A stretch of 64,000 nucleotides of DNA from contig CADCOE010000054.1 of assembly GCA_902802985.1 (NCBI GenBank), positions 1 to 64,000 of the forward strand, given 5' to 3'. The DNA is from an uncultured Ruminococcus sp. GTDB taxonomy: Bacteria > Bacillota > Clostridia > Oscillospirales > Acutalibacteraceae. How positions within the stretch are numbered: the stretch's first letter is position 1; every line of letters begins with the position of its first letter. Both the position numbers and the translations under genes were made by a program. The notes below the pieces were generated by a model. It made no database searches. It saw only the letters and a list, made by a program, of their open reading frames with translations, and was not told where the DNA came from. This document shows positions 2,819 through 15,800 of the stretch, one piece after another.

Positions 2819-3145
2819 TCAACCTAAATCCGTAATCCTGATTGAGTAGATATCCTCGAAGTATATCTGCTCGCCGTCCAATTTGAGCCAGCGGAACGTG
2901 CAATCCACGTCCGTGATCCTGCCGCGTTTGGTGACGTCATGAAAAGCGCAGTAGCAGTCGATTTCAACTTTCATGCCGCGCCGGAGCTTCAAGAGGATCC
3001 GTGAGTTGTGTTCCGCCTGCTCATCGGAAATCTCATGCCGCTCCACCCGCAGGTGTCGTTCTTCACGATCCCGCAGCGCTTCCTGCAAGCCCTTCATCGC
3101 ATCAAACGGACTGAAGATTTTAGCTCTTTCTGCTCTTGTCATCAT
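2819..3145 (-). CDS. YolD-like protein
   Basis: 108 residues with FSPFDAMKGLQEALRDREE near the N-terminus, resembling the YolD family. YolD-family genes are commonly paired with Y-family (UvrX/UmuC-like) polymerases, and here the gene overlaps the end of such a polymerase by 26 bases. The family is thought to modulate the polymerase or SOS mutagenesis. The pairing strongly supports the call. Confidence 0.75.
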   Translation of the reverse strand: MMTRAERAKIFSPFDAMKGLQEALRDREERHLRVERHEISDEQAEHNSRILLKLRRGMKVEIDCYCAFHDVTKRGRITDVDCTFRWLKLDGEQIYFEDIYSIRITDLG

Positions 3146-4406
3146 ATCCTGCTCGATGCCCTCCTATAAATCCGTTCCGTTCACGCTGGGTGCCCTCCGG
3201 CATGTAGTTGACGCCATGGAGGACAGCGTTTTTGCCGTACCGCTGCCGAATGTCGAGAACGGTCTGCTGCACGGTTCGCTCCCGCTCGACGGCATCAAAG
3301 TTCGTGAAAAGGTTGTAGCCCTCACAGCCTTCGTCGCACACATCCTCGAATGCGATGCCGAGCCGTCTGATCTTGGTGTGGCGATCCGTGGTTTTATCGT
3401 AGACCCGCAGCGCCGCCTCCACAAGGAAGGAAGCGAGGGCGGTCGTCACATCCAGCTTTGCAGTACCCTTGGTGGGGGCGATTTCGTCATGGGTATAGCC
3501 GACAAAAATGCCGACCTTGCTGGTGATGACTTTCCGCCGCATGAGCTCCGCTGCTCCGTTGAGCGCCATCTCATGCATGACTGTCCGGGCTTCCTCGAAG
3601 GTGTAGTCCCGGGGCAGGATCTGCGAGAACGATACGGATTTCGTCTTACTCTTATATGCTTTGATGTCAGAGATCAGGCACGGCTCGCGTCCCCACGCGT
3701 GGTCAATGAGCAGTTCCGCGTTCTTTCCGAAGATTTTGTACATGAGCCCTGTGTCCATCTGCGTCACGCCGCGCATATCGAAAACGCCGTAGCGCTCCAG
3801 CCGCCGTGCCGTCCCGCCTGCGACCATCCAGAAATCCGTGATCGGGCGGTGATCCCATAAGGTCTGCTTGTACTTTTCTTCGTCCAGTACGCCGATGTGA
3901 TCTCTGGCGTGCTTGGCCGTAATATCCAGCGCGATCTTGGCGAGGTAGAGGTTCGTGCCGACCCCTGCTGTGGAAGGAATGTGATAGCGGTCTGCGATCT
4001 CATTCATCAGGTGCTTGGCGAACGTCACCGCGTCCATGTGATTCGGTGCCAGATAATCGGTTACGTCGAGGAACGATTCGTCGATCGAGTACACGTGGAT
4101 GTCCTGTGGGTCGAAGTAATCCAGATACAGCGAGTAGATGTCCGCTGCGTATTCAATGTACAGAGCCATGCGGGGCGGGGCGACTTCGTACTTGACATTG
4201 TTCGGGATCTCCGACAGCCTGCACCGGTTTTTTATGCCTTGCGCTTTCATCGCCGGTGTAATGGCGAGGCACAAGGCATTCTTTCCGCGTGTAAGGTCTG
4301 CGACCACGAGGTTCGTCTCGAAGGGGTTGTACCCACGCTCGGCGCATTCGACCGAAGCGTAAAAGCTCTTCATGTCTATGCAGAAGTATGTTCGTTGCTT
4401 TGCCAT
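3120..4406 (-). CDS. Y-family (UmuC/UvrX-like) translesion DNA polymerase
   Basis: 428 residues, full length for the family. The palm has Asp11 in FCIDMKSFYASVE and the catalytic pair in YSIDESFLDVT (Asp109, Glu110). These are the metal-binding acids for nucleotide addition. A helix-hairpin-helix region (GGTARRLERYGVFDMRG) and a little-finger domain follow. It copies damaged DNA. It lies downstream of a LexA-like repressor and a 75-residue gene and upstream of YolD, so the module is an element-borne SOS/mutagenesis cassette. Confidence 0.93.
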   Translation of the reverse strand: MAKQRTYFCIDMKSFYASVECAERGYNPFETNLVVADLTRGKNALCLAITPAMKAQGIKNRCRLSEIPNNVKYEVAPPRMALYIEYAADIYSLYLDYFDPQDIHVYSIDESFLDVTDYLAPNHMDAVTFAKHLMNEIADRYHIPSTAGVGTNLYLAKIALDITAKHARDHIGVLDEEKYKQTLWDHRPITDFWMVAGGTARRLERYGVFDMRGVTQMDTGLMYKIFGKNAELLIDHAWGREPCLISDIKAYKSKTKSVSFSQILPRDYTFEEARTVMHEMALNGAAELMRRKVITSKVGIFVGYTHDEIAPTKGTAKLDVTTALASFLVEAALRVYDKTTDRHTKIRRLGIAFEDVCDEGCEGYNLFTNFDAVERERTVQQTVLDIRQRYGKNAVLHGVNYMPEGTQRERNGFIGGHRAGYDDKSRKS

Positions 4407-4447
4407 GGTGGGTACACTCCATTTTGGTTATTTGTGAGGCGGCGGAG

Positions 4448-4675
4448 TCATAGGGCCTGCACCGCCTCGATGCTAGGGCCGCTGCTCTGCAGACGGTCAG
4501 CGAATGCCTGCAGCCGCTCCTTTGTGTACATGGCCGTGCAGCTGATATGCATGACCATGCCTCCGGTCTTTTTGTCGTAGACTTGGATGTGCCCGTTGTA
4601 CGCCTGTCCCACGTAGTAGTCCTGCGTCTCAACGGCTTCGCCGTTTCTGCGGCGCTGCTGATATCCAGTTCTCAA
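4448..4675 (-). CDS. small conserved hypothetical protein
   Basis: 75 residues, MRTGYQQRRRNGEAVETQ at the start, with no domain I recognise. A TTG start is likely because GGAGG lies about 8 bases upstream. It sits between the LexA-like gene and the polymerase with short gaps, so it is probably co-transcribed and damage-regulated. Function unknown. Confidence 0.55.
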   Translation of the reverse strand: MRTGYQQRRRNGEAVETQDYYVGQAYNGHIQVYDKKTGGMVMHISCTAMYTKERLQAFADRLQSSGPSIEAVQAL

Positions 4676-4690
4676 CTCTGATCCCTCCGA

Positions 4691-5287
4691 TCACTCCAGA
4701 TCCTTGAGCACCTTGAACGCGACACCCTGAATCTCGCAGTTATCGACGTAGATGTCTTCCATGCGCGAGTTTTCCGGGTGCAAGCGGACGCGATGCTTCT
4801 TCGGTTCCGGGTAGAATCTCTTGAGCGTTGCTTCGTCCTCAATGAGGGCGACGACGATCTGACCTTCGTCGGCGTAGTTCTGCTTTCGGATCAAAACGAG
4901 ATCTCCATCATCGATACCTGCTTCGACCATAGAATCGCCGTAGGCACGAAGAATGAAGAAATCGCCTCGACCGAACAGCGCGACAGGGAGGCGGACGTAT
5001 TCCTCGATGTTTTCCTCTGCGTACTTCGGAATACCGCAGGCAACTGTGCCGAGGATGGGAACCGGGACTACTGCCGCCTTCGTCCGCGTTGCTGTCATGG
5101 TACGCCAGCCAGAATAACTGATAATGCCGTCTTCGCACATCTGGGCGATGTACCGCTGCACCGTGGCCTTCGACGATCCGACGCCGTCCGCTACTTCCTG
5201 CATGGTGGGCGAGATACCGTTATTGTCCGTAAAAGTGGTTACGAACTTCTCGATAGCCGCCATAAGGGTTTTGTCTTTGCTTCTCAT
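4691..5287 (-). CDS. LexA/UmuD-like self-cleaving repressor
   Basis: 198 residues. The N-terminal winged helix (residues 5-60, ISPTMQEVADGVGSSKATVQRYI) resembles LexA. The C-terminal S24 peptidase domain has Ser119 in YGDSM and Lys156 in EATLKRF, the catalytic dyad. The predicted cleavage site is Cys84-Gly85 (TVACGIP), where LexA usually has Ala-Gly. By family knowledge, RecA-stimulated self-cleavage would derepress the polymerase operon after DNA damage. The gene has its own promoter and a palindrome in the leader, so autorepression is likely. RBS: AGGAGGAATT. Confidence 0.9.
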   Translation of the reverse strand: MRSKDKTLMAAIEKFVTTFTDNNGISPTMQEVADGVGSSKATVQRYIAQMCEDGIISYSGWRTMTATRTKAAVVPVPILGTVACGIPKYAEENIEEYVRLPVALFGRGDFFILRAYGDSMVEAGIDDGDLVLIRKQNYADEGQIVVALIEDEATLKRFYPEPKKHRVRLHPENSRMEDIYVDNCEIQGVAFKVLKDLE

Positions 5288-5671: not shown

Positions 5672-5703
5672 CAGTGTTCCTTTCTCCTACGAAACTAATC
5701 AAG

Positions 5704-6582
5704 TTATGAAACGGGGGCGAATCGAGCGGAGAATGCTGAATATGGGATCTTGGCGTTGTCCCACAATCCGGTTTTGCCATCTACGGGTATATGAGGACTC
5801 ATTTCATCTGCTGTGATCCTTGCCAGCATACGGCTTGAAGCGCATATACACCAAAAGTAAAAATAATACCGTCCTTTGTTGTTTGCCAGAGTTGCAGTTT
5901 CCCATTCATGTCTGGTAATAATAGCGAAGGCATTTTGAATGGATTGTGTCGAGGATTTGACCTCTATTAGTATTCGCTCGTTGTTCTCTGCAGACCGTTG
6001 CGATAGAATATCATATCCGGCAAGGTTGGTTTCGATAGCTCTCCAGTCTGGCTGAGCTCCAGTCCGCGCTTCTTCATAGAGCATTGTCAGTTTTTCTCCT
6101 TGCCGCCCGACTTCGTTATTCTGCTCATTCTTTTTCGTTCTTTCTATCTCTGCAAGAGCATCCCACCAATTCAAAACAGCATCATCTTGACTGTCAATCA
6201 GCCCTGCTTCTGAAAAGCAACGTTGTTCTTCTTCGTTCATGAAGAGATATGCTTCTTTTCTGCCATATGGGATTCTTTTCGCCCATGCAGGCTGGCACAC
6301 GGCAATATACTGTGACAAAATGATCCGCCATAATTCTTCCGAGATCGATTCACCATTAAACTTTGTGAGAATGGTGTGCCCAATATCAGAAATCCCAATT
6401 TTTGAATAGGACAGCAGTATCCACTCGCACTGTTCTGCAAATGCAAGAGAAACCGCGAAATTGATCCCAAGGGGCAGTTTGATTTGTGCTGCTTCCTCCA
6501 GTGTATGGCATCGATTCTTGTTGATGCAATCGATAAAGAGCAACGATTGGGACACGACGTTAACTGAAATATACGTTTTCAT
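5704..6582 (-). CDS. DUF3883 domain protein, putative PD-(D/E)xK nuclease
   Basis: 292 residues. The C-terminal half (from residue 156, NEVGRQGEKLTMLYEE) matches DUF3883. It has Glu163, Asp191 in GYDILSQ and the Glu207-Val-Lys209 pair in ILIEVKSS, the layout of a PD-(D/E)xK nuclease, then the ITRHEWETA and GRYYFYFW segments typical of the family. DUF3883 proteins are commonly found next to helicases and restriction enzymes. The start overlaps the helicase stop by 4 bases (ATGA). This is the only protein in the operon in which a complete nuclease-like triad is visible, so it is the best candidate effector (inference). Confidence 0.8.
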   Translation of the reverse strand: MKTYISVNVVSQSLLFIDCINKNRCHTLEEAAQIKLPLGINFAVSLAFAEQCEWILLSYSKIGISDIGHTILTKFNGESISEELWRIILSQYIAVCQPAWAKRIPYGRKEAYLFMNEEEQRCFSEAGLIDSQDDAVLNWWDALAEIERTKKNEQNNEVGRQGEKLTMLYEEARTGAQPDWRAIETNLAGYDILSQRSAENNERILIEVKSSTQSIQNAFAIITRHEWETATLANNKGRYYFYFWCICASSRMLARITADEMSPHIPVDGKTGLWDNAKIPYSAFSARFAPVS

Positions 6583-8366
6583 TTGGCATCGTCTCCAAAG
6601 AAATAATCGATCACTGCTTTAACGTCATCACCGGTCATATCGTCAGTTGAGAAATCGATGTCATACGGGATGGCCTCAACATTTAAGGATGTATCGTTTA
6701 GTGCATCAGCCATAGTATTAACTTTGATTTTCAACCGCTGATCGATCACCTCATCAATGGTGTTACGGCATTCAACAATTTCGATAATCGGTGATTCATC
6801 TGGCTTTAAGCCAAGCCGATGGATTCTATCTTCGGATTGTAAATAGTGAGCTGCATTAAACGAGCGATCCACATAGATTGCGTAATGACAAGCCTTGTGT
6901 AAACTTATGGCTTCCGCCGCTGCAGATGGATTTAAAACAAGTACCATCTTTTCCTTGTTTTCATGGAATTGCTTTATTTTCCATTCGCGGGTATCTTCCT
7001 CTTGCTCGTCTCCTGATCCGACACCTCCATATATGCAATCGGCTCCAATGTCTTTTAATCTTTCTGTGATCAGAAGCACATTACGCACGAACTGCGACCA
7101 AATGATCACCTTTTTCCCTTCAGCCGCCAGTTCCCGTGCCTTTTGACAAGCATACTCAATTTTGGGGCCAGAATCCATCGCGATCAAATCTCCGAGTCTC
7201 TTATCGAAGATATAATCCATATCATTTGCCAGTAATGATGGATTGGACGTAAATTCCATGACCTTCATTATTTTTTTGCCGATGTCTCTAAGCGAATACT
7301 TTTCTGCATCTGACAGCATTACCAGCATCTGTCTCTTTGTTTCTGACCGGATTGCTTGATATACCTCGGATTGCAACGGGGTCATGTCAAGGGATACTTT
7401 TCGATGAATGATCGGGGGGATGCCGAGTTGTCCTTTAGTCGTTCTAACGTAAACGGGCTGAAGACTCTCGACCACGTTGTCTTCGGTGACGTATTTGTCT
7501 GGATACAAAAACTCAAACTGTGGTAGCAAGTCGGCGAGTGACTGCGGGCAAGGGGTTCCGGACATAATGAGTTTTCTGTCCGGCAAGTACGAAACATTCA
7601 AAATCTCTTGCGGGCTTACTCCAGACCTACCGCTCTTTATTCTGTGGCTCTCGTCAAGAAACATCACGACTTTGTGGTACACAAGGAACTCTCTTATCAG
7701 ATGAGCGACCGTTGCAAACTGGCCGTATGAAATCAGCATGAATCGAGGATTGTCTCGGAGAAGCCTATCTACGTTCTTTTCACCACCACGCAACCGAACG
7801 AACTTGTATCCCTTGTTTGGACAACAGTCTTCCATCTGGGTCTCCCAAGCGCCCATTGCACTCAAAGGCCCAACTACTAACAAATGGTCGTTATGTTCTG
7901 CATTACAAAAATAGTAGGCGAGCGCTTCCGTAGTCTTGCCTGCTCCGGGAACGGAAAATGTCGCACCTGCGGGAAGAGGCGCAAGGTGCCGGACATTATT
8001 CATTTGGTTAACAGTGAGTTTTCTTGTAAAACCTGCTGCATCTAAACGCGCTTGGATTTCAGCCTCTGAAAGATCCGTCGCTTTACACGCATTTGAATAC
8101 GACCTTGCGTTTGCTGTTTTCAACAATTCCCGTACTTTTGGAGAAAACTCAGCACCGATGTCGTGGTTTTTAAGATACCGTGCTATTTCCGATCGCACGC
8201 CAATAAAAACCCGGTATGGAATGATCAATAGATTATCCACCTGAATAATGGCGGAACTGTAATCCATAATGATCCTAACAAAACCGCGCCATTCATTATC
8301 CGTAAAGCCAAGTGGTTTTACGGTTATTATTTCTTGGGTACTATCGTAATCGAAACGAATTTGCAT
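6579..8366 (-). CDS. SNF2-type DEAD/DEAH helicase of defence-like operon
   Basis: 595 residues. About 130 N-terminal residues have no recognised domain and may be specific to the system. The core has Walker A VPGAGKTT (141-146), motif II DESH (238-241), motif III MSGTPCPQS, and the C-terminal motif VI SEDRIHRLGL. The family translocates on or remodels DNA using ATP. It overlaps the DUF3883 gene by 4 bases and lies 15 bases after the ParB-like gene, so the three are probably made together. It is distinct from the split phage-type SNF2 at the left edge. Confidence 0.9.
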   Translation of the reverse strand: MQIRFDYDSTQEIITVKPLGFTDNEWRGFVRIIMDYSSAIIQVDNLLIIPYRVFIGVRSEIARYLKNHDIGAEFSPKVRELLKTANARSYSNACKATDLSEAEIQARLDAAGFTRKLTVNQMNNVRHLAPLPAGATFSVPGAGKTTEALAYYFCNAEHNDHLLVVGPLSAMGAWETQMEDCCPNKGYKFVRLRGGEKNVDRLLRDNPRFMLISYGQFATVAHLIREFLVYHKVVMFLDESHRIKSGRSGVSPQEILNVSYLPDRKLIMSGTPCPQSLADLLPQFEFLYPDKYVTEDNVVESLQPVYVRTTKGQLGIPPIIHRKVSLDMTPLQSEVYQAIRSETKRQMLVMLSDAEKYSLRDIGKKIMKVMEFTSNPSLLANDMDYIFDKRLGDLIAMDSGPKIEYACQKARELAAEGKKVIIWSQFVRNVLLITERLKDIGADCIYGGVGSGDEQEEDTREWKIKQFHENKEKMVLVLNPSAAAEAISLHKACHYAIYVDRSFNAAHYLQSEDRIHRLGLKPDESPIIEIVECRNTIDEVIDQRLKIKVNTMADALNDTSLNVEAIPYDIDFSTDDMTGDDVKAVIDYFFGDDAK

Positions 8367-8381
8367 GTGTTATCCCCGCTA

Positions 8382-9782
8382 TCAGTGTTTTTGATGCGTG
8401 TCCAGCCAGCTCTTGATTGCCTTCAAATGATCTTCGATCGTATCTATCTGAGCTCTAGCTCCTTCAGTAATAGTGCTATCGTTAAGGCCGCTGTTGCGTA
8501 CGTTCCACAAGGATTTTGCGACCGACGAAAGTGCATTTATCAGGTATTTCGCGCTCTTCTGCTCACTTTTGAGACTCTTTTGTTCGTCTGTGATCTGCTT
8601 AACAAGTCCCCCCAATTTGATCCCAGAACCCTGAACAGCAGCAGCAAGCTCACTGAACGTATCTTTTTTCGTTGTCTCTCCACCGAGCAAATCAATGTCG
8701 TCCTCATCTTCAGACGCAGGTGTTTCGACAGTAGCTGTTCCTCCGCTTACGGGGGTTGTAGGAATCGCTGTTTGTGAGGGCTGCGCAGGCTGAGGTTGAT
8801 CTAACAGAGTTGGCTGTGCGGGCTGCTGCGGCTTGGGGGGTTGTTGCAACAGTCCTTTTTCCTGAAGAGCTGCTGCTATCGCATCAAGATTCTCTGCAAT
8901 GTCTGGAATGTTTGAGTATAGCCTTCCCTGATAGTCTTTGTGTTCGATAAGAGTAAAACACACCGCCTCGAACAATTCCTTTCGGCCTTGATCAGTGATC
9001 TTTTTGCGTTCGTCCACCATGGCCTTAAAGGCGAATTCATCTCCGTCGACAATACTCCATTGATCCGGCTTGCCAATTTTACGGAGATAAATCTCCGCAT
9101 ACTCTAAGGCACCGATGAGTGTATCAACCTCTTTTTTCGTAACATCATAGGACTTAGCCAGCTGCTCCGGAGTCGCACCCGCCTCACGTTCCTCTTTCAT
9201 CATCGCCGCTTTGTTGTGCCATTTGTATTCGGCACGATGAGTTTTTTGAATCTGAAGGCGCTTTTCGAGCGCTTTTATCTCTTCTTCATCACAGTCCTCA
9301 GGAAGCACAGCGAGATCGACAAACTCAAAATGCTTATACTTCTCTGGCTCTTGATAGAATAGCGTTCTCCAAACACACAGTCTTCGGTTGCCGTTAACGA
9401 CAACACCGGTGCTTGTAACAATAACCGGTTCCGTCTGCTGCGTACCGCTCTGAAACTCCTTCAGCAGGTCTTCATCTTCTGCAAGCTTCCGCAGTATTTG
9501 ATGCTGTGCGCGCTGCGCCTCGAGCGAGTCGGGATCTTTAGTGAACAAGTCGGGAGCAGCATCCGGATGAGTCGCTAAGTACTCACGTTGAAAAGTACGT
9601 GTGCGCCCGTTACTCATTCTATACACAGGCAATCCAATTCTGACTGTTATTTGCTTGAGCCGCTGGTATTTTCCCATCACCTCAAGCGGATATAGCGTCT
9701 TTGAACTAGCTGCTTTTGTGGCGATTTCACTTTTCCGAGTGAGCAACGGCTCACCAAACTGTTTCATCGACGGCTGCATCAT
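8382..9782 (-). CDS. ParB-like (ParB/sulfiredoxin fold) protein with coiled-coil tail
   Basis: 466 residues. The N-terminal part has PVIVTSTGVVVNGNRRLCVWR (residues 119-139), the ParB/Srx nucleotide-binding signature (GNRR where ParB has GERR), then an HTH-like stretch (ATPEQLAKSYDVTKKEVDTLI). A Pro/Gln-rich linker (about 315-355) leads to a helical tail. ParB-fold proteins bind CTP/ATP or act as nucleases. It is unlikely to be a partition protein, since there is no ParA and it is embedded with restriction genes. The ATG overlaps the previous stop (ATGA), after GAGGAGG. Confidence 0.82.
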   Translation of the reverse strand: MMQPSMKQFGEPLLTRKSEIATKAASSKTLYPLEVMGKYQRLKQITVRIGLPVYRMSNGRTRTFQREYLATHPDAAPDLFTKDPDSLEAQRAQHQILRKLAEDEDLLKEFQSGTQQTEPVIVTSTGVVVNGNRRLCVWRTLFYQEPEKYKHFEFVDLAVLPEDCDEEEIKALEKRLQIQKTHRAEYKWHNKAAMMKEEREAGATPEQLAKSYDVTKKEVDTLIGALEYAEIYLRKIGKPDQWSIVDGDEFAFKAMVDERKKITDQGRKELFEAVCFTLIEHKDYQGRLYSNIPDIAENLDAIAAALQEKGLLQQPPKPQQPAQPTLLDQPQPAQPSQTAIPTTPVSGGTATVETPASEDEDDIDLLGGETTKKDTFSELAAAVQGSGIKLGGLVKQITDEQKSLKSEQKSAKYLINALSSVAKSLWNVRNSGLNDSTITEGARAQIDTIEDHLKAIKSWLDTHQKH

Positions 9783-10252
9783 GCTTCCTCCTCATTATCG
9801 AAGCCAATAACGACCATTGGCACCGTTATTACTTTTGAAAAAATATTTGTCAGTTCGTTCAGAAAACGCGAATAGTTAGCCACGTTTCCACCGAATGAAT
9901 TTGCACAATCTTTTGTTGGCAGAACGAAAATCGCTGCCTTGATTTTCTGATCCATGTATAAAGCTTGGAGTTTCATGAGATCCGCGTACATTCTCGCCAT
10001 ATTACCTGTCTGTGTACACAGTCCTATATCTTTCCAAATTGACGTTATCGATATGCTGGATTTGGCCGAGAGGTTAACTTTCCCCGACCAGCCCTTCATT
10101 TTTAATTGATCCGAAAGGTCGTCCTTAAAATGCTTGATGTCGTATTTTCCCAAGCTGTAATCAAGGCCGCGTATTACCGACAAAACACTCTCTGTTACTT
10201 CGTTTGGAACAACCTGCTGGCCACTACGATAATTGTAAATGATTGTTTTCAT
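9779..10252 (-). CDS. BglII/BstYI-family restriction-endonuclease-like protein, possibly inactive
   Basis: 157 residues. IGLCTQTGNMARMYADLMKL (77-96), the hydrophobic strand AAIFVLPT and ITVPMVVIG near the C-terminus resemble the BglII/BstYI family core, and the length is short for the family. The strand expected to carry the catalytic acids reads KVNLSAKSSISITS (58-71), with Asn60 and Thr70 where active enzymes have Asp and Glu. By eye it therefore looks catalytically dead, and target recognition may be its job. The methyltransferase lies immediately upstream. The family call rests on motif resemblance only. Confidence 0.6.
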   Translation of the reverse strand: MKTIIYNYRSGQQVVPNEVTESVLSVIRGLDYSLGKYDIKHFKDDLSDQLKMKGWSGKVNLSAKSSISITSIWKDIGLCTQTGNMARMYADLMKLQALYMDQKIKAAIFVLPTKDCANSFGGNVANYSRFLNELTNIFSKVITVPMVVIGFDNEEEA

Positions 10253-10272
10253 CGTTTTTCTCCCTGCCTAAG

Positions 10273-11175
10273 TTATTTCCACTCTTCTGGTGCTTTTGAT
10301 AGATTACTCTGTTTAGCATCATAAATCGGTTGATCGACAGGACGGTATTTGACTGTCCCGTCCAACGAATCTTGCAGTCGTTTCTGGCTAATATCAATGT
10401 ATTCATCTACAAGTTCACAGCCCCAGAATCTTCTTCCATGGATAATGGCCGCGACGCCTGCTGATGAAACGCCTGCGAAAGGATCAAATACCAATTCGCC
10501 TTCGTTTGTCATTGATAGCACCAAACGCTCTATCAATCCAACAGGGAACTGACAGGGGTGAGCAGTCTTTTCAATGTGATTGCTCTTTACATTCGGGATT
10601 TCCCACACATCTTCCGGGTTCTTTCCAAGAGGGTTTCCTGATAATTCGCCTTTGTGCGGGCCTTTGAAATATCTTTTGCCCGGATACTTTGATGGTATAC
10701 GCACGGGATCAAGATTGAATGTATACTTGTTTGTTTTAGTGTACCAAAGCACAACCTCATATCTGCCGCTAAACCTTTTCTTTGTATGCAGCCCGTGTCC
10801 GAAATGCCAGATAATCCGATTGCGAAGCTGCATGTTTAAGTCCTTGAAAATCGGTGCGAACTCGAAGTCAAGTGGTATAATTGCGCCGTTGGAAACATAG
10901 TTTCCTACCTGCCAACAGATACTACCCGTGTCTTTCAGCCGAGGATAGATTTTTCTTATAATTCGCTCCTGCCACTCAATGTAACGGGACAAATCCATCT
11001 TTTTTTCGTATTCTTTACCAATATTGTATGGTGGGGAAGTAACAACCAAATCGAAGATAGGTTCCTCCGGCAATGTATCAAGGAGCTTCTCGACATCCAT
11101 CCCAAAGAGAGCATTTTCTGTGGGTTGCACTGCTGTGATTTTTTTTGTGTCCTTCACAACAATTATATCCGACAT
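10273..11175 (-). CDS. beta-class DNA methyltransferase (SPPY; N4-cytosine or N6-adenine)
   Basis: 300 residues. The catalytic motif IV, TSPPYNIGKEY (SPPY at 47-50), precedes the SAM-binding motif I, FDPFAGVSSAG (DPFAG at 231-235). That order defines the beta class. SPPY is usual for N4-cytosine enzymes and is known in M.BglII-type methylases, which fits the BglII/BstYI-like neighbour. It would mark self DNA. The RBS GGAGGAATGACAG is good. It is first of five lower-GC genes and lies 40 bases after the WYL regulator gene. Confidence 0.92.
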   Translation of the reverse strand: MSDIIVVKDTKKITAVQPTENALFGMDVEKLLDTLPEEPIFDLVVTSPPYNIGKEYEKKMDLSRYIEWQERIIRKIYPRLKDTGSICWQVGNYVSNGAIIPLDFEFAPIFKDLNMQLRNRIIWHFGHGLHTKKRFSGRYEVVLWYTKTNKYTFNLDPVRIPSKYPGKRYFKGPHKGELSGNPLGKNPEDVWEIPNVKSNHIEKTAHPCQFPVGLIERLVLSMTNEGELVFDPFAGVSSAGVAAIIHGRRFWGCELVDEYIDISQKRLQDSLDGTVKYRPVDQPIYDAKQSNLSKAPEEWK

Positions 11176-11215
11176 TCTGTCATTCCTCCGTTTTTTCTTT
11201 TGCAGCTGCTTTCAT

Positions 11216-12214
11216 TCACTGTTCGCATATCGCAGTAATGTGCTTCTTGTACTGATCGATTACAGGCGAAGGCGATATGATCCGCATCTTGTTTCCGAAC
11301 TGCGCCAGCCACCCGAAGAATGTGGGGCTGATCTGCACGTGTACCGTCGCTGCGCAGGTGTTATCATTTACACCCATCATCGGTGTGTCTTCGCCGAATT
11401 TGTCAAAGACGGGGCCGATGAGCTCTTTGCTGAACTGGATTACCACGTCTTCCAGCTCGCCGCTGAACATCTTGAACGCCTGCTCCGTGAACTCTGTCAC
11501 GCCGTCGATCTTGGCGATGGCCTCATCCGACAGCACCGATTCCTCGACGACCTCGACGTGATCCATGCGGTCGATACGGTAGCTGGCGGTCTTGTCCGGG
11601 TGCCTGCTACTGTATGCCATCAGGTAGTAGTTGTCTTCATTGAATATTAGCGCGACCGGCTCCACGTAGTAACGCTTCTTGTCGCCGGTGCTGGTGGCCA
11701 CAAAGACGCGCTCTGCTTTTTCGTTCAGGTGGAAGTAATTGAACGCAATTTTTTTCCTGCGGATGATGGCATCCTCGATGCTGTCCACCGTATAGAGGAT
11801 GGATTCGTTGGTGTGCTTCCGGGTGTTGAAACAGACCATGTTTTCCTTTAGCAGCTTGGCTTGGTGTGATCCGCCGAGGGCGGCGACCTTTTCAACCAGC
11901 TCTGCCGTTTTCTTTTCGGTGACGAAACTGGCCGCCTGCACCGCGTCGATCAGTATCTTGATCTCCGGCACCGTGAGTTCGTGCTCCGGGACGTAGTAGA
12001 ACTTTTCCTTGTCCTTCAGGTAGCTCATGATCTCGAAGCCGTTTTCCTGCATGACTTCTATGTCCAGACTGAGCGTCCTGACGTTGCTGGAAATGCCCAT
12101 CTCATTCAGCCGTCTGCAGAGTTCAACGCGGGAGATAGGATGATCTTCATCCGTCTCTTTGCGAAGCATCTCGTAAAGCTTCAGCAGCTTGATCTTTTGC
12201 ATGTTAGCAGCCAT
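11216..12214 (-). CDS. WYL-domain transcriptional regulator
   Basis: 332 residues. N-terminal winged HTH (residues 5-65, ISRVELCRRLNEMGISSNVRTLSLDIEVM), then a WYL domain (about 145-235, ending YRIDRMDHVEVVEES) and a C-terminal WCX-like extension. WYL regulators of this layout (for example BrxR and CapW) repress phage-defence operons. It heads the defence-like operon with only 40 bases between genes and no visible promoter in the gap. Its GC is high like the element backbone, though, so it may be native to the element. RBS AAGGAGGGGG. Confidence 0.88.
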   Translation of the reverse strand: MAANMQKIKLLKLYEMLRKETDEDHPISRVELCRRLNEMGISSNVRTLSLDIEVMQENGFEIMSYLKDKEKFYYVPEHELTVPEIKILIDAVQAASFVTEKKTAELVEKVAALGGSHQAKLLKENMVCFNTRKHTNESILYTVDSIEDAIIRRKKIAFNYFHLNEKAERVFVATSTGDKKRYYVEPVALIFNEDNYYLMAYSSRHPDKTASYRIDRMDHVEVVEESVLSDEAIAKIDGVTEFTEQAFKMFSGELEDVVIQFSKELIGPVFDKFGEDTPMMGVNDNTCAATVHVQISPTFFGWLAQFGNKMRIISPSPVIDQYKKHITAICEQ

Positions 12215-12242
12215 GCCGTGCCCCCTCCTTGAAATGGGTACA

Positions 12243-12271
12243 ATTATACCTATCTATTTTACCACAAAACT
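12243..12271 (-). promoter_or_regulatory. probable promoter of the WYL/defence transcript
   Basis: A perfect TATAAT (12243-12248 on the minus strand) lies about 30 bases before the WYL start codon. The -35 region is weak (AGTTTT at 17 bases), which would suit a regulated promoter. No clear palindrome is visible around it. Confidence 0.45.
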
Positions 12272-12526
12272 CCCGGTTTTTCAAGGTTTTCGCGTAATTA
12301 AATCATTACACGACTGGATATTTTTTGTGAATAATCGGTTCAAATCCTGCCTCCTATATCCTTTTGTTCGTTCTTTACAGAGCAAAGAAACGCAAAAAGT
12401 ACACCAGCGTTTTCGGGCCATTTCTGCCGCTGAAAGCAAAAAATCGGGCTCCGCAGCAGCCGATCGACTGCTCCAAAGCCCGATTTCACTGTATTTTGCC
12501 CGTTTTTCGCCCAAAATGCACGAAAA

Positions 12527-12558
12527 AACCTCTTTTGTCTTGGTAGACAAAAGAGGTT
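12527..12558 (-). terminator. strong intrinsic terminator
   Basis: AACCTCTTTTGTCT and its exact complement flank a 4-base loop, followed on the minus strand by TTTTTTCG. It lies downstream of the end module and upstream of the WYL gene, and insulates the two. Confidence 0.75.
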
Positions 12559-12565
12559 TCTTTGA

Positions 12566-12602
12566 TGGTGAAGAGGGTAAGACTCGAACCACGATCCCTG
12601 CC
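12566..12602 (-). other. degenerate tRNA-3'-end-like sequence
   Basis: Read on the minus strand it contains GTGGTTCGAGTC followed by ACCCTCTTCACCA, resembling a T-arm plus CCA end. The T-stem does not pair well and no 5' half is present. It may be a relic of another attachment site. Low confidence; chance is possible. Confidence 0.25.
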
Positions 12603-12613
12603 GCGCGGTGCCT

Positions 12614-12635
12614 ATGGCACCATTTTTGGCACCCG
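12614..12635. repeat. 22-bp direct repeat, copy 1
   Basis: Identical to 15551-15572. It begins ATGGCACCATTTTTGGCA and ends CCCG, and itself contains GGCACC twice. The two copies are 2.94 kb apart and bracket the toxin/DUF4417/ImmA/XRE module. Confidence 0.8.
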
Positions 12636-12789
12636 AAATGGTGGACGGCGTTTCTGTGCTGTGGTTTAATCTATGTAAATTACGGAAGATACCCCAACAT
12701 CTTGTGTTCGTTTACGGAAAAAGCGCAAGATATGGATTTTACGGATATTGTGTACCCTATCAAGGGGAGCGGTCTATCACTTAAAGATG

Positions 12790-12818
12790 AAATCCCCGAT
12801 GTTTTGACTCGGGGATTT
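12790..12818 (-). terminator. terminator of the toxin/immunity-like module
   Basis: AAATCCCCGA pairs with TCGGGGATTT across a 9-base loop, 13 bases past the 112-residue gene on the minus strand. The T tract is poor, so efficiency is uncertain. Confidence 0.6.
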
Positions 12819-12830
12819 CTGCAATCGTGC

Positions 12831-13169
12831 TCAGTTTGTCACACTATCTGTCGGAAATGCTTTTTCGATCTCGTCAATGATTTCATAACGGCCTTGTGTT
12901 TTTCTGCGGAGTTCTGATACTGCGCATTGCCAGTCCTTGAGAAAAGCTCTCTTGTCAGCCTCGGTCTTGAAGCCAACATAATCAAACTCGTGTGCATTGT
13001 TGATAAACAATGCATCATAACGAGCCTGAAGATCATCGAATTTGGAATCCAATTCGCTATCGCTTCGGAGCTCTTCCGGAAGAAGGGTATCAACGATATT
13101 TCCTTCTTCATCATACAGCCACACGGGATAGCAACGGTATTCAAGCATAATCCTAAGGGTTTTAATCAT
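12831..13169 (-). CDS. putative immunity protein (hypothetical)
   Basis: 112 residues, acidic, soluble, no signal peptide: IKTLRIMLEYRCYPVWLYDE at the start, then an acidic middle. I know no named family for certain. It follows the toxin-like gene by 18 bases in the same direction, and size, acidity and order (toxin then immunity) fit polymorphic-toxin immunity proteins. The assignment is from context only. Confidence 0.5.
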   Translation of the reverse strand: MIKTLRIMLEYRCYPVWLYDEEGNIVDTLLPEELRSDSELDSKFDDLQARYDALFINNAHEFDYVGFKTEADKRAFLKDWQCAVSELRRKTQGRYEIIDEIEKAFPTDSVTN

Positions 13170-13187
13170 TTTCTTATACCTCCATCT

Positions 13188-13595
13188 TTATCTCGGATTT
13201 GCACCAACGATATAGCCATTATCACCTACGGTTACGGCAACCTGATAAGTTTTCCCATTGTACTCCACTTCATAGATGGGGCGTCCGGTGCCTTTTCCTT
13301 GGTATCCGACGATAGTTCCTTTTGATGCCGCTGTAAGCACAAAATCGGAAATATCGCTTGATGCGATCCCTTTTGCATTAAAGTTTGATTCGTGTGCGTC
13401 GATTATATGAGCAAGCCCACTTGGTTTTCCGCCTAAATGTCCTTTTTCCAGCCAGATGATTTTCCCTGACGAGTCCTTTGTGATGCCGATGACTTCGTCG
13501 GGATTAATCTTATCGCCGTGCGCTTGAACTTCATCTATTAATGCTCGCCCTTCTCCGCTTGTACCCGTGAAATAACCACTATTACTTTTGCTCAT
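13188..13595 (-). CDS. stand-alone polymorphic-toxin-like domain (BECR-type fold suspected)
   Basis: 135 residues. LAHIIDAHESNF (His63, His68) is followed by a helical stretch (ISDFVLTAASKG) and two strands, RPIYEVEYNGKTYQVAVTVG and DNGYIVGANPR. This His-containing helix, beta-strand pattern ending in GANP resembles C-terminal nuclease toxin domains of the barnase/EndoU/colicin/RelE-like group. There is no secretion or repeat region upstream, so it is a free toxin module. The start overlaps the DUF4417 stop by 4 bases. The reaction is inferred only. Confidence 0.55.
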   Translation of the reverse strand: MSKSNSGYFTGTSGEGRALIDEVQAHGDKINPDEVIGITKDSSGKIIWLEKGHLGGKPSGLAHIIDAHESNFNAKGIASSDISDFVLTAASKGTIVGYQGKGTGRPIYEVEYNGKTYQVAVTVGDNGYIVGANPR

Positions 13596-14308
13596 CCCGC
13601 CCGCCTCCTTTTGTCGAAGGCTGACGCCGTGTTGCCGGGGTAAGCGATCACGTTGATCCCCTGTTCACCCAGCCTGTCAAAGCAAGGATATTTGGCAGAG
13701 CCAAATACGAGAACCGTATGTGGTTGCAGGACGCGGACGAGTTCTTCCAATCCTTCTTCAAATCGCTTGCGATCAACAAGCTTGCGTGGGCTGCCACCGA
13801 CGGTTCCAATGCAAATAACACTGTTCTTTGGGATGCCGTCCCAACAGTATTGCCACGTTTCCTGCGTACCCCAGCGGCAGTTGTTGATAACAGCGATTCC
13901 GTTTTTCCCGAGCCAGTACCCGAATACCCGCATTCGATATACGTTGTATTTCTTAAGCGGCTCCGGGAAATCCTGATAGGTGGAAAAATCCGGCGTGATC
14001 GCTCCGGCGAAATGTCGAAGCACCCGCAGTACGAATTTGCAATCGTGCCAGATCCCGCGCGGTCCGTCGAATTTATAATCGTCGATGTACCAACAGACGA
14101 ATGCGTTACAGAAAAAGGAATCATCCTTTCGTGCCAGCGCATTTCTGTATAACCGTTTCGCTTCATCCCACGTAATGATCGCCGCCGGGATTTCCGTTGC
14201 AGTTGTCGGGCAGAACGGAATATCGTTCGTGCTAAAGGACGCACCTTCACACATGAAGGCGTTCCAAACGTCTTTGCACCCGCTTCGGGTGCGGTTCGAT
14301 ATTGGCAT
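13592..14308 (-). CDS. DUF4417 domain protein
   Basis: 238 residues. Landmarks are the YIDDYKFDGPRGIWHD segment, ITPDFSTYQDFPEPLKKYNVYR and the C-terminal HTVLVFGSAKYPCFD with a Rossmann-like strand. This matches DUF4417, a family common on phages and conjugative elements of Firmicutes with no known reaction. It is upstream of and overlaps the toxin-like gene. A start further upstream cannot be excluded. Confidence 0.75.
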   Translation of the reverse strand: MPISNRTRSGCKDVWNAFMCEGASFSTNDIPFCPTTATEIPAAIITWDEAKRLYRNALARKDDSFFCNAFVCWYIDDYKFDGPRGIWHDCKFVLRVLRHFAGAITPDFSTYQDFPEPLKKYNVYRMRVFGYWLGKNGIAVINNCRWGTQETWQYCWDGIPKNSVICIGTVGGSPRKLVDRKRFEEGLEELVRVLQPHTVLVFGSAKYPCFDRLGEQGINVIAYPGNTASAFDKRRRAG

Positions 14309-14539
14309 ATTTCAACGCTTCCTTCGCTGTGCCCGCAGCGAAACCCTCCGGGACGGGCTGAATTTTTTGCCCGGATGGGTTGACTTTCGAGCAGAAATAT
14401 GCCATAATATCTAATACCACTTAGGAATATGGGAACATATTTCTGCGGAAGGCACATGGTTTGCTGCGCCAACAGCTTATCCATGTGTCTTTTGTCTATC
14501 GTGAACAACCAATTAACACCACCTGCCTTCGTATCATTT

Positions 14540-15103
14540 CTATGACAACAGACTCATTAGGGTCTTTTCATAGTTTTTGGTGAACGGGATATTGCACCAA
14601 TTCTCGTATCTGGTAAAGCAGCGCATCGCGCACGGCTCTGAAACAAAAAACGCATTTGCCACGTCCGTGTAATCATCGCAGCCTGCTTGCCCGATCCACG
14701 GGGTAGGCGCAAGCAGATATGCAGAGTAATAATCTGCGATGCGCCGCGCCAGTTCGCTTTCGCCTCTGTGTCCCATCCGTATGTGACCGATCTCATGACC
14801 GATCGTAAACCGAAGGCGTTCCTTCATTCCATCCGGTCTGTAGTAGATCACAAACGTTTTTCGATCAGGATTGTAATGACTGACTCCATCGACATCCTTC
14901 GGCACGAGTATCCGCTTTGCTTCTTTATCCATTTTGGAAAAAGGAACAAGCTCATATCCGAGCGATAACGCGATTTGCATTGGGTCTATCGGATAGCTTC
15001 GGATATTCAGCTGCACAAGCAAATCAACGGCATTTTCTTCGATTTTATTGTACAGCTTAGCGGGCAAAGACAAGTAGTCCAGATAATCCTGTTCGTACAT
15101 CAT
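14540..15103 (-). CDS. ImmA/IrrE-type zinc metallopeptidase
   Basis: 187 residues with the zinc motif HEIGHIRMGH (HExxH) in the middle, the ImmA/IrrE (M78) hallmark. Members cleave XRE-type repressors to induce mobile elements, as ImmA does for ImmR of ICEBs1. The gene overlaps the XRE gene upstream by 4 bases, so the protease and its probable substrate are made together. This supports an integrative element. Confidence 0.9.
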   Translation of the reverse strand: MMYEQDYLDYLSLPAKLYNKIEENAVDLLVQLNIRSYPIDPMQIALSLGYELVPFSKMDKEAKRILVPKDVDGVSHYNPDRKTFVIYYRPDGMKERLRFTIGHEIGHIRMGHRGESELARRIADYYSAYLLAPTPWIGQAGCDDYTDVANAFFVSEPCAMRCFTRYENWCNIPFTKNYEKTLMSLLS

Positions 15104-15405
15104 TTCTCCATCAGAAGCTTGATCAGCTTGAATTTTTCTTCGTCCGTCATAGAAATGGTGCTTCTGGCGACAAGACGGTAAACATCTTCAAAGCCGGTCT
15201 GATCTTCTTTTCCTGTGATTAAATACTCAACGGTCGTGTTCAGCGCGGTGGCCATGTTTGCTACCACCTCGATCTTGGGCTCTCTTTCGTTTTTCAAGTA
15301 CCTGCACATTGCTGCTTCGGTTACGCCACACATTAGTGCAAACTCCTTTTGTGTGTAGCCGCTTTCTTTAAGCAACTTTGCAATTCGATCTCCTATTCGT
15401 GTCAT
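15100..15405 (-). CDS. XRE-family repressor (ImmR-like)
   Basis: 101 residues. The HTH occupies residues 5-60 (IAKLLKESGYTQKEFALMCGVTEAAMCRYLKNE), followed by a short tail. It is the likely master repressor of the element and target of the downstream ImmA-type protease. It has its own strong promoter with a palindrome between promoter and gene. RBS AAGGAGGAAGGCACC. Confidence 0.88.
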   Translation of the reverse strand: MTRIGDRIAKLLKESGYTQKEFALMCGVTEAAMCRYLKNEREPKIEVVANMATALNTTVEYLITGKEDQTGFEDVYRLVARSTISMTDEEKFKLIKLLMEK

Positions 15406-15426
15406 GGTGCCTTCCTCCTTGATTTG

Positions 15427-15480
15427 CCGAAATTATCCTTTCGGTAATTTTAGTATAGCACCTGGTTGTAGCATTGTCAA
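15427..15480 (-). promoter_or_regulatory. promoter and operator of the XRE gene
   Basis: TTGACA (15475-15480), 17 bases, TATACT (15452-15457) on the minus strand. The inverted repeat CCGAAA-N6-TTTCGG (15427-15444) lies just downstream of the start point and is a probable autorepressor site. Confidence 0.8.
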
Positions 15481-15550
15481 GTGTTTTTGCAAAAAAATAT
15501 GGCCCACTTTCTTTCGTGGGCTGAATTCTTTTTCAATTGTCGATGAAACA

Positions 15551-15572
15551 ATGGCACCATTTTTGGCACCCG
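15551..15572. repeat. 22-bp direct repeat, copy 2
   Basis: Identical to 12614-12635 and in the same orientation. It lies about 145 bases from the tRNA-Arg junction, a position where tyrosine recombinases have arm-type binding sites. Confidence 0.8.
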
Positions 15573-15714
15573 CTTTGGTGTATAATGGTTTTGGCACATA
15601 GCAAAGGGCAATCGGTTTTCTCTAAATCCTGAAAAATATCGTGAAAACGATGTAAATTGTGCGAATAATCCGCGCTTTTGCGGATAAGGTATTTGGTTGG
15701 GAGCGAAGCACAGT

Positions 15715-15760
15715 CCTCCTAAGCGGAAGGTCGTGGGTTCAAATCCCGCCGAGGACGCCA
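15715..15760 (+). other. tRNA-Arg(CCU) 3' fragment, attachment-site junction
   Basis: The sequence has an anticodon loop CTCCTAA with 3' stem GCGG, a perfect T-arm (GTGGG TTCAAAT CCCGC), the 3' acceptor strand CGAGGAC, G73 and CCA. The 5' half is missing: the expected acceptor GTCCTCG is not found 77 bases upstream and the 5' anticodon stem is broken. This is the pattern left when an element integrates into a tRNA gene. The reconstituted tRNA should lie at the other end, left of the window. Confidence 0.8.
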
Positions 15761-15765
15761 TTTTT

Positions 15766-15800
15766 AACCGTTTTTGATAATTTTTTTATCAAAAACGGTT
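15766..15800 (+). terminator. terminator of the interrupted tRNA gene
   Basis: AACCGTTTTTGAT pairs with ATCAAAAACGGTT and TTTCTC follows. It lies 6 bases after the tRNA CCA and marks the first chromosomal DNA. Confidence 0.8.

Follow-up and report, generated by a model that had tools for sequence, protein, structure and literature searches.

Classical Type II restriction–modification (R-M) systems consist of a dedicated methyltransferase (MTase) and, encoded by the adjoining gene, a restriction endonuclease (REase) that acts as a single autonomous, ATP-independent nuclease. CglI and NgoAVII combine a MTase with a separate ATPase/helicase and a nuclease, and recognition of the site sets off ATP hydrolysis, which precedes the cut (PMC4267653). 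Their R protein carries a B3 reader and a PLD nuclease, and their N protein is a DEAD-Z1 helicase. LlaJI and other McrBC-like R-M systems also have dedicated MTases and split recognition, NTPase and nuclease among subunits; in LlaJI, a McrB-related NTPase works together with a B3 reader (PMC12707154). BREX-type-3 BrxHII and BREX-related SNF2 helicases combine a degenerate PD-(D/E)XK domain with SNF2, in some cases together with an active REase; this inactive domain, which is RapA-like and lies inside the helicase, has been proposed as a nucleotide sensor (PMC12839542). Finally, DUF3883 was earlier termed a novel REase domain in R-M operons, fused to a SNF2 helicase, and the available sections of that paper describe no BglII-like or ParB-like partner for this SNF2 and DUF3883 nuclease combination (PMC3710099).

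The locus described here lies in a window of 64,000 nucleotides from an uncultured Ruminococcus sp., in which the genes for a MTase, a BglII-like protein, a ParB-like protein, a SNF2-type ATPase and a DUF3883 protein form a compact run on one strand (Table 1). Stop and start codons overlap by 4 bp between the BglII-like and ParB-like genes and between the SNF2 and DUF3883 genes. The order BglII-like–ParB-like–SNF2–DUF3883 was found in every related locus on a contig of sufficient length, while the adjacent WYL-domain regulator had no match in 18 related loci and is not conserved.

As in a classical Type II system, a dedicated MTase adjoins the REase gene, but here the REase lacks its catalytic acids and a SNF2 ATPase and a separate nuclease are encoded as well. 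In contrast to CglI and NgoAVII with their R and N proteins, the operon has one protein for each of the four putative functions (reader, clamp, motor and nuclease), all from other families, and Pfam searches with the operon proteins gave no PLD, B3 or Z1 match. Where LlaJI has its NTPase and B3 reader, the operon has a SNF2 protein and a Type II enzyme without its catalytic acids. The BrxHII-type helicases carry their inactive REase domain internally, and the available text describes no such domain as a stand-alone reader; here the degenerate nuclease is a stand-alone relative of orthodox Type II enzymes. PADLOC reported SNF2-domain cross-hits (ZorD, DpdE and DrmD) and cross-hits to REase_II, MTase_II and NOV_C and nothing more. 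The hallmark gene sets of DISARM, BREX, Zorya and Dpd were not found in the operon by this program, and PADLOC 2.0 contained neither a model nor a match for the ParB-like protein. No published account of this gene combination was found in the open-access literature searched. We propose that the operon may work most like CglI/NgoAVII or LlaJI, though it lacks their defining domains.

In the reading that we consider probable, the whole operon encodes an R-M system that has several subunits and depends on ATP: an inactivated Type II endonuclease would read the site, and the DUF3883 protein would cut. The MTase would mark the sites of the host, and the BglII-fold protein, a former Type II endonuclease, would only read the unmodified site. 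The ParB-like clamp, probably nucleotide-gated, and the SNF2 translocase would be loaded or activated at this site, and cleavage would be carried out by the DUF3883 protein of the PD-(D/E)XK type. In this reading, the SNF2 protein would act as a translocase and the operon would serve in defence.

Table 1. Genes of the operon and the adjacent regulator gene, with their positions in the window
Feature	Position	Strand	Length (aa)	Characteristics
WYL-domain regulator	11216..12214	minus		directly upstream on the same strand; possible regulator; Pfam WYL E=2.8e-10
MTase	10273..11175	minus	300	beta-class, TSPPYNIG motif (N4-C or N6-A); Pfam N6_N4_Mtase E=1e-52
BglII-like protein	9779..10252	minus	157	ATG at 10252, stop ends at 9779; catalytic Asp replaced by Thr70 and Glu by Cys79, Gln81 retained; putative subunit for site recognition
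ParB/Noc/KorB-like protein	8382..9782	minus	466	NGNRR motif; AF2 and Foldseek
SNF2-type ATPase/translocase	6579..8366	minus	595	Pfam SNF2-rel_dom E=1.4e-14 and Helicase_C
DUF3883/NOV_C protein	5704..6582	minus	292	putative nuclease, GYD...IEVK; Pfam NOV_C E=5e-11

The initial annotation had placed the BglII-like protein in the BglII/BstYI family and proposed a structural comparison with these enzymes. Pfam PF09195 (Endonuc-BglII) matched the protein at 29.1 bits with a cut-off of 26 (E=9.7e-7). An AlphaFold2 (AF2) model built with 18 homologues reached a pLDDT of 89.6 and a pTM of 0.88, and its 16 Foldseek matches in the PDB with E<=0.001 were exclusively BstYI, BglII, OkrAI and BamHI (best E 3.1e-9; TMq 0.64-0.87). 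Profile searches of PDB sequences with the BglII-like protein also returned OkrAI (2e-4) and BstYI (8e-4). The family assignment was thus borne out by Pfam and by the AF2/Foldseek comparison, and the predicted fold is that of BglII, BstYI and BamHI.

Active-site columns were assigned by profile-profile alignment with intact family members and by pairwise alignments with BstYI and BamHI. We take the catalytic residues to be D84, E93 and Q95 in BglII, equivalent to D119, E128 and Q130 in BstYI, a numbering that fits the BstYI alignment obtained. The column of the catalytic Asp falls on Thr70 of the BglII-like protein (Ser71 in the pairwise BstYI alignment), that of the catalytic Glu on Cys79 and that of the catalytic Gln on Gln81; the counterpart of the ExQ motif is Cys79-Thr80-Gln81. 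The earlier placement of the Glu-x-Gln/Lys site at Thr70-Ser71 was therefore wrong. Asn60, which had been put forward as the Asp position, pairs with D94 of BamHI in the BamHI alignment only, whereas the Asp of BglII and BstYI falls at Thr70. The central claim, that both catalytic acids are lost, held and could be extended to all cassette members. Because the defining acids are absent, the protein does not count as a functional member of the BglII/BstYI endonucleases, and from its sequence we predict that it does not cut.

The loss is consistent across the cassette, as we call the conserved genes from the BglII-like to the DUF3883 gene. An acid at either catalytic position occurs in 0/26 cassette members, versus both acids in 13/13 stand-alone relatives. 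The acid loss in this family represents a single event, so that the sequence counts are not independent, and Fisher tests, which take no account of relatedness, are given no weight. The stand-alone set comprises nine classical PF09195 members, which the phylum search recovered independently, and four MTase-paired plasmid enzymes. In the alignment of 23 cassette members, T, A or F occupies position 70, C or Q occupies position 79 and Q is always found at position 81, and the active-site pattern of the three further members agrees with this. The cassette protein resembles BglII, BstYI, BamHI and OkrAI (PF09195, PF02923) in fold, in the third catalytic residue (Gln81 corresponds to BglII Gln95) and in its slot after the MTase. 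It differs from them by the missing acids and by the ParB-like, SNF2 and DUF3883 genes that always follow it in complete loci, and it is shorter than the plasmid BglII/BstYI enzymes (151-157 versus about 190-205 aa).

The partner proteins retain their motifs. The helicase motifs LDE[SA]HR (DEAH-type) and RIHR of the SNF2 protein are intact in 20/20 members. The same holds for the PD-(D/E)XK motif G[YF]D...IEVK of the DUF3883 protein (20/20 aligned members, with further loci in agreement), which on this D…EVK site is a putative nuclease. For the ParB-like protein, Pfam gave no match. Its AF2 model (pLDDT 81) had Noc, KorB and ParB as top Foldseek matches, covering the N-domain and the HTH with a probability of 1.00 but an E-value of only 4e-3. 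Within the family, NGNRR stands in place of the GERR box, one of the CTP-binding motifs of ParB CTPase clamps, and is invariant, as are E173 and Q177. Since the modelled fold matches Noc, KorB and ParB and these residues are invariant, a putative nucleotide-gated clamp is a reasonable inference.

A search with the ParB-like protein regardless of its neighbour revealed a second subtype of the cassette. At four plasmid loci (Rhizobium, Mesorhizobium, Kozakia and Azospirillum), a protein of 280-319 aa is followed by the ParB-like, SNF2 and DUF3883 proteins. This first-slot protein matches the PADLOC Type II REase model PDLC03501 with an E-value of about 1e-19, and a PDB profile search with this family matched nothing. 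Its stand-alone relatives, each beside an m5C MTase and without ParB or SNF2, carry D-x13-(E/D)-x-K in 6/6 cases. By the PD-(D/E)XK rule, this motif would be the active site of the family. The four cassette copies have V or I and I at the acid positions and keep the Lys. If the active-site assignment is right, two enzyme families would have been disarmed independently in the same slot, and the loss in the second would count as an event of its own.

The slot can also be empty: loci L076 and L077 keep MTase-ParB-SNF2-DUF3883 without any REase-like gene in first position. The dead enzyme is therefore not universally required, and site recognition at these loci must be achieved by other means, perhaps through the MTase or the HTH of the ParB-like protein. 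Such loci would suit a different reading, in which the BglII-fold protein is dead yet accessory, as a modification sensor, a scaffold or an inhibitor restraining the nuclease, while the site is located by the MTase or by the HTH of the ParB-like protein. In other defence proteins, inactive REase domains have been proposed to act as nucleotide sensors (PMC12839542). We nevertheless regard an accessory role as unlikely. The slot holds two different acid-less families of Type II REases, and their common ancestral property is sequence-specific DNA binding. Moreover, Q81-x-G83-N84 and R87 are strongly conserved in the BglII-like protein, in a stretch that aligns to ETGN of BamHI and OkrAI.

Far less probable is residual cleavage by the BglII-fold protein itself through a rearranged site, either with a migrated acid such as Asp91 or Glu133, which might form an unusual metal site, or on a Cys/Gln basis. 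No acids other than Asp91 and Glu133 are common to all aligned cassette members, and some PD-(D/E)XK enzymes have a migrated Glu. However, intact relatives that have the normal acids in place likewise carry D or N in the Asp91 column, so that Asp91 is not an obvious replacement. Judging from the alignment, the substitutions at both acid positions appear to have no compensating acid nearby. The second REase family in the slot also lacks both acids, and the operon encodes another nuclease, whose motif is intact.

The 23 cassette BglII-like proteins form one clade (support 100/99), and in six unsaturated pairs the dN/dS of the gene was 0.05-0.17, which indicates purifying selection on a protein that is kept for a function. 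Cassette hosts belong to Bacillota, Alphaproteobacteria, Zoogloeaceae, Nitrosospira, Ignavibacteria, Acidobacteria, Verrucomicrobia, Planctomycetota and Marinimicrobia, and further members occur on a Paracoccus plasmid and in viral-collection contigs. One clade, a low dN/dS and a distribution over many phyla together show that the acid loss is old and that the protein has been maintained, rather than decaying locally. That the BglII-like gene is a decaying Type II R-M remnant beside an unrelated helicase-nuclease cassette, as the ordinary Type II order of MTase and BglII-like gene might suggest, is hardly credible in view of this conservation, the constant gene order in many phyla, the invariant residues over 23 sequences and the translational overlaps.

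Despite its wide distribution, the cassette is rare. Its BglII-like members were found in 1/198 close relatives, which is the window's own genome, and in 2/397 genomes of the Mesorhizobium order. The cassette is thus sporadic, as the same genus and family show none beyond the window's own genome in these 198 genomes. Phage records gave no match, and a search of a viral structure library returned nothing significant. Three single loci deserve mention. In L003, a homologue of KwaB (Kiwa) lies directly upstream of the cassette (6827-7780), and this copy may therefore sit in a defence island. The SNF2 gene of the Planctomycetota copy L017 matches in two frames (9864-11569), so that this copy may be frameshifted. 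L081 (2837-10983) carries a more distant ParB-SNF2-DUF3883-MTase set, preceded by a MTase-like protein of 887 aa that may be another, third type of partner in the first slot.

For the MTase of the window, M.RsrI was the best among the PDB matches, and the SPPYN motif is present in 12/12 cassette MTases. This MTase lies upstream in 12 aligned loci including the window, and a convergent m5C MTase is found instead in 10 loci. Vsr mismatch endonuclease genes are located near the m5C-MTase cassettes in four loci (L005, L008, L010 and L033); Vsr is the usual companion of m5C MTases. An exchangeable MTase fits the expectation for an R-M system. Host CcrM had been considered as the MTase of the alphaproteobacterial loci without an upstream MTase and was dropped, since the convergent m5C MTase adjoins them. 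Locus L002 has no adjacent related MTase; a 51%-identical relative is unlinked, on another contig. At L059 (3980-6716), a relative of the cassette MTase is followed by a DGQHR-domain (DndB-like) protein in place of the REase.

The closest plasmid relatives of the window MTase (51-59% identical) are encoded on small plasmids of Acinetobacter, Sphingobium, Spirosoma and Komagataeibacter. All four are paired with annotated BglII/BstYI-family endonucleases, in which D...E-x-Q is intact (4/4). Furthermore, two cassette MTases, from the Paracoccus plasmid (L049) and from L051, branch with two of these plasmid Type II MTases with moderate support (83/94). Most simply, a BglII/BstYI-type pair would have lost cutting and gained clamp, motor and nuclease. 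Because the relatives of the MTase are paired with intact BglII/BstYI enzymes, the target of the BglII-like protein is probably, by analogy, a GATC-centred palindrome of the BglII/BstYI type.

Taken together, the acid loss, the intact DUF3883 site and the Type II-like MTase support the suggestion of the initial annotation that the BglII-like protein recognises DNA without cutting it and leaves cleavage to the DUF3883 protein, with recognition as the inferred part. Whether the operon goes further and represents a distinct R-M class, whose common effector, made up of ParB clamp, SNF2 motor and DUF3883 nuclease, has recruited inactivated Type II enzymes of at least two families as interchangeable readers, we judge to be an evenly balanced question.

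The surroundings of the operon contain several features of mobile DNA. A tRNA-like sequence at 15716-15760 consists of the 3′ half alone, with CCA at its end and no 5′ half; ARAGORN calls no tRNA there, and the GC content drops at this point from about 0.46 to 0.36. The arrangement resembles an integrated element with its attachment end here and the operon as cargo (5700-15800). A 30-nt direct repeat with 90% identity lies between the operon and this putative end of the element; its copies, at 12614-12643 and 15551-15580, are separated by 2.9 kb. An ImmA/IrrE-type peptidase gene with an adjoining XRE-like regulator was found at 14540-15405, a pair typical of integrative elements. On the left side, which has a higher GC content, genes for a UmuC/DinP-like polymerase and a LexA-like repressor are located at 3120-5287; such genes are often carried by mobile elements.

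An acid-less BglII-type enzyme beside a clamp, a motor and an intact nuclease suggests that ordinary restriction enzymes have been turned into non-cutting DNA readers. If this is true, the specificity of orthodox Type II enzymes would twice in nature have been separated from cutting and linked to an effector powered by ATP. Inactivated restriction enzymes that direct another protein to the place of cutting would then parallel dCas9 as its natural equivalent, and they would supply a set of small proteins that bind specific sequences without cutting them. The finding would also show a way in which ATP-dependent restriction can arise from Type II systems, and it would give a ParB-type clamp a role in restriction that can be tested.
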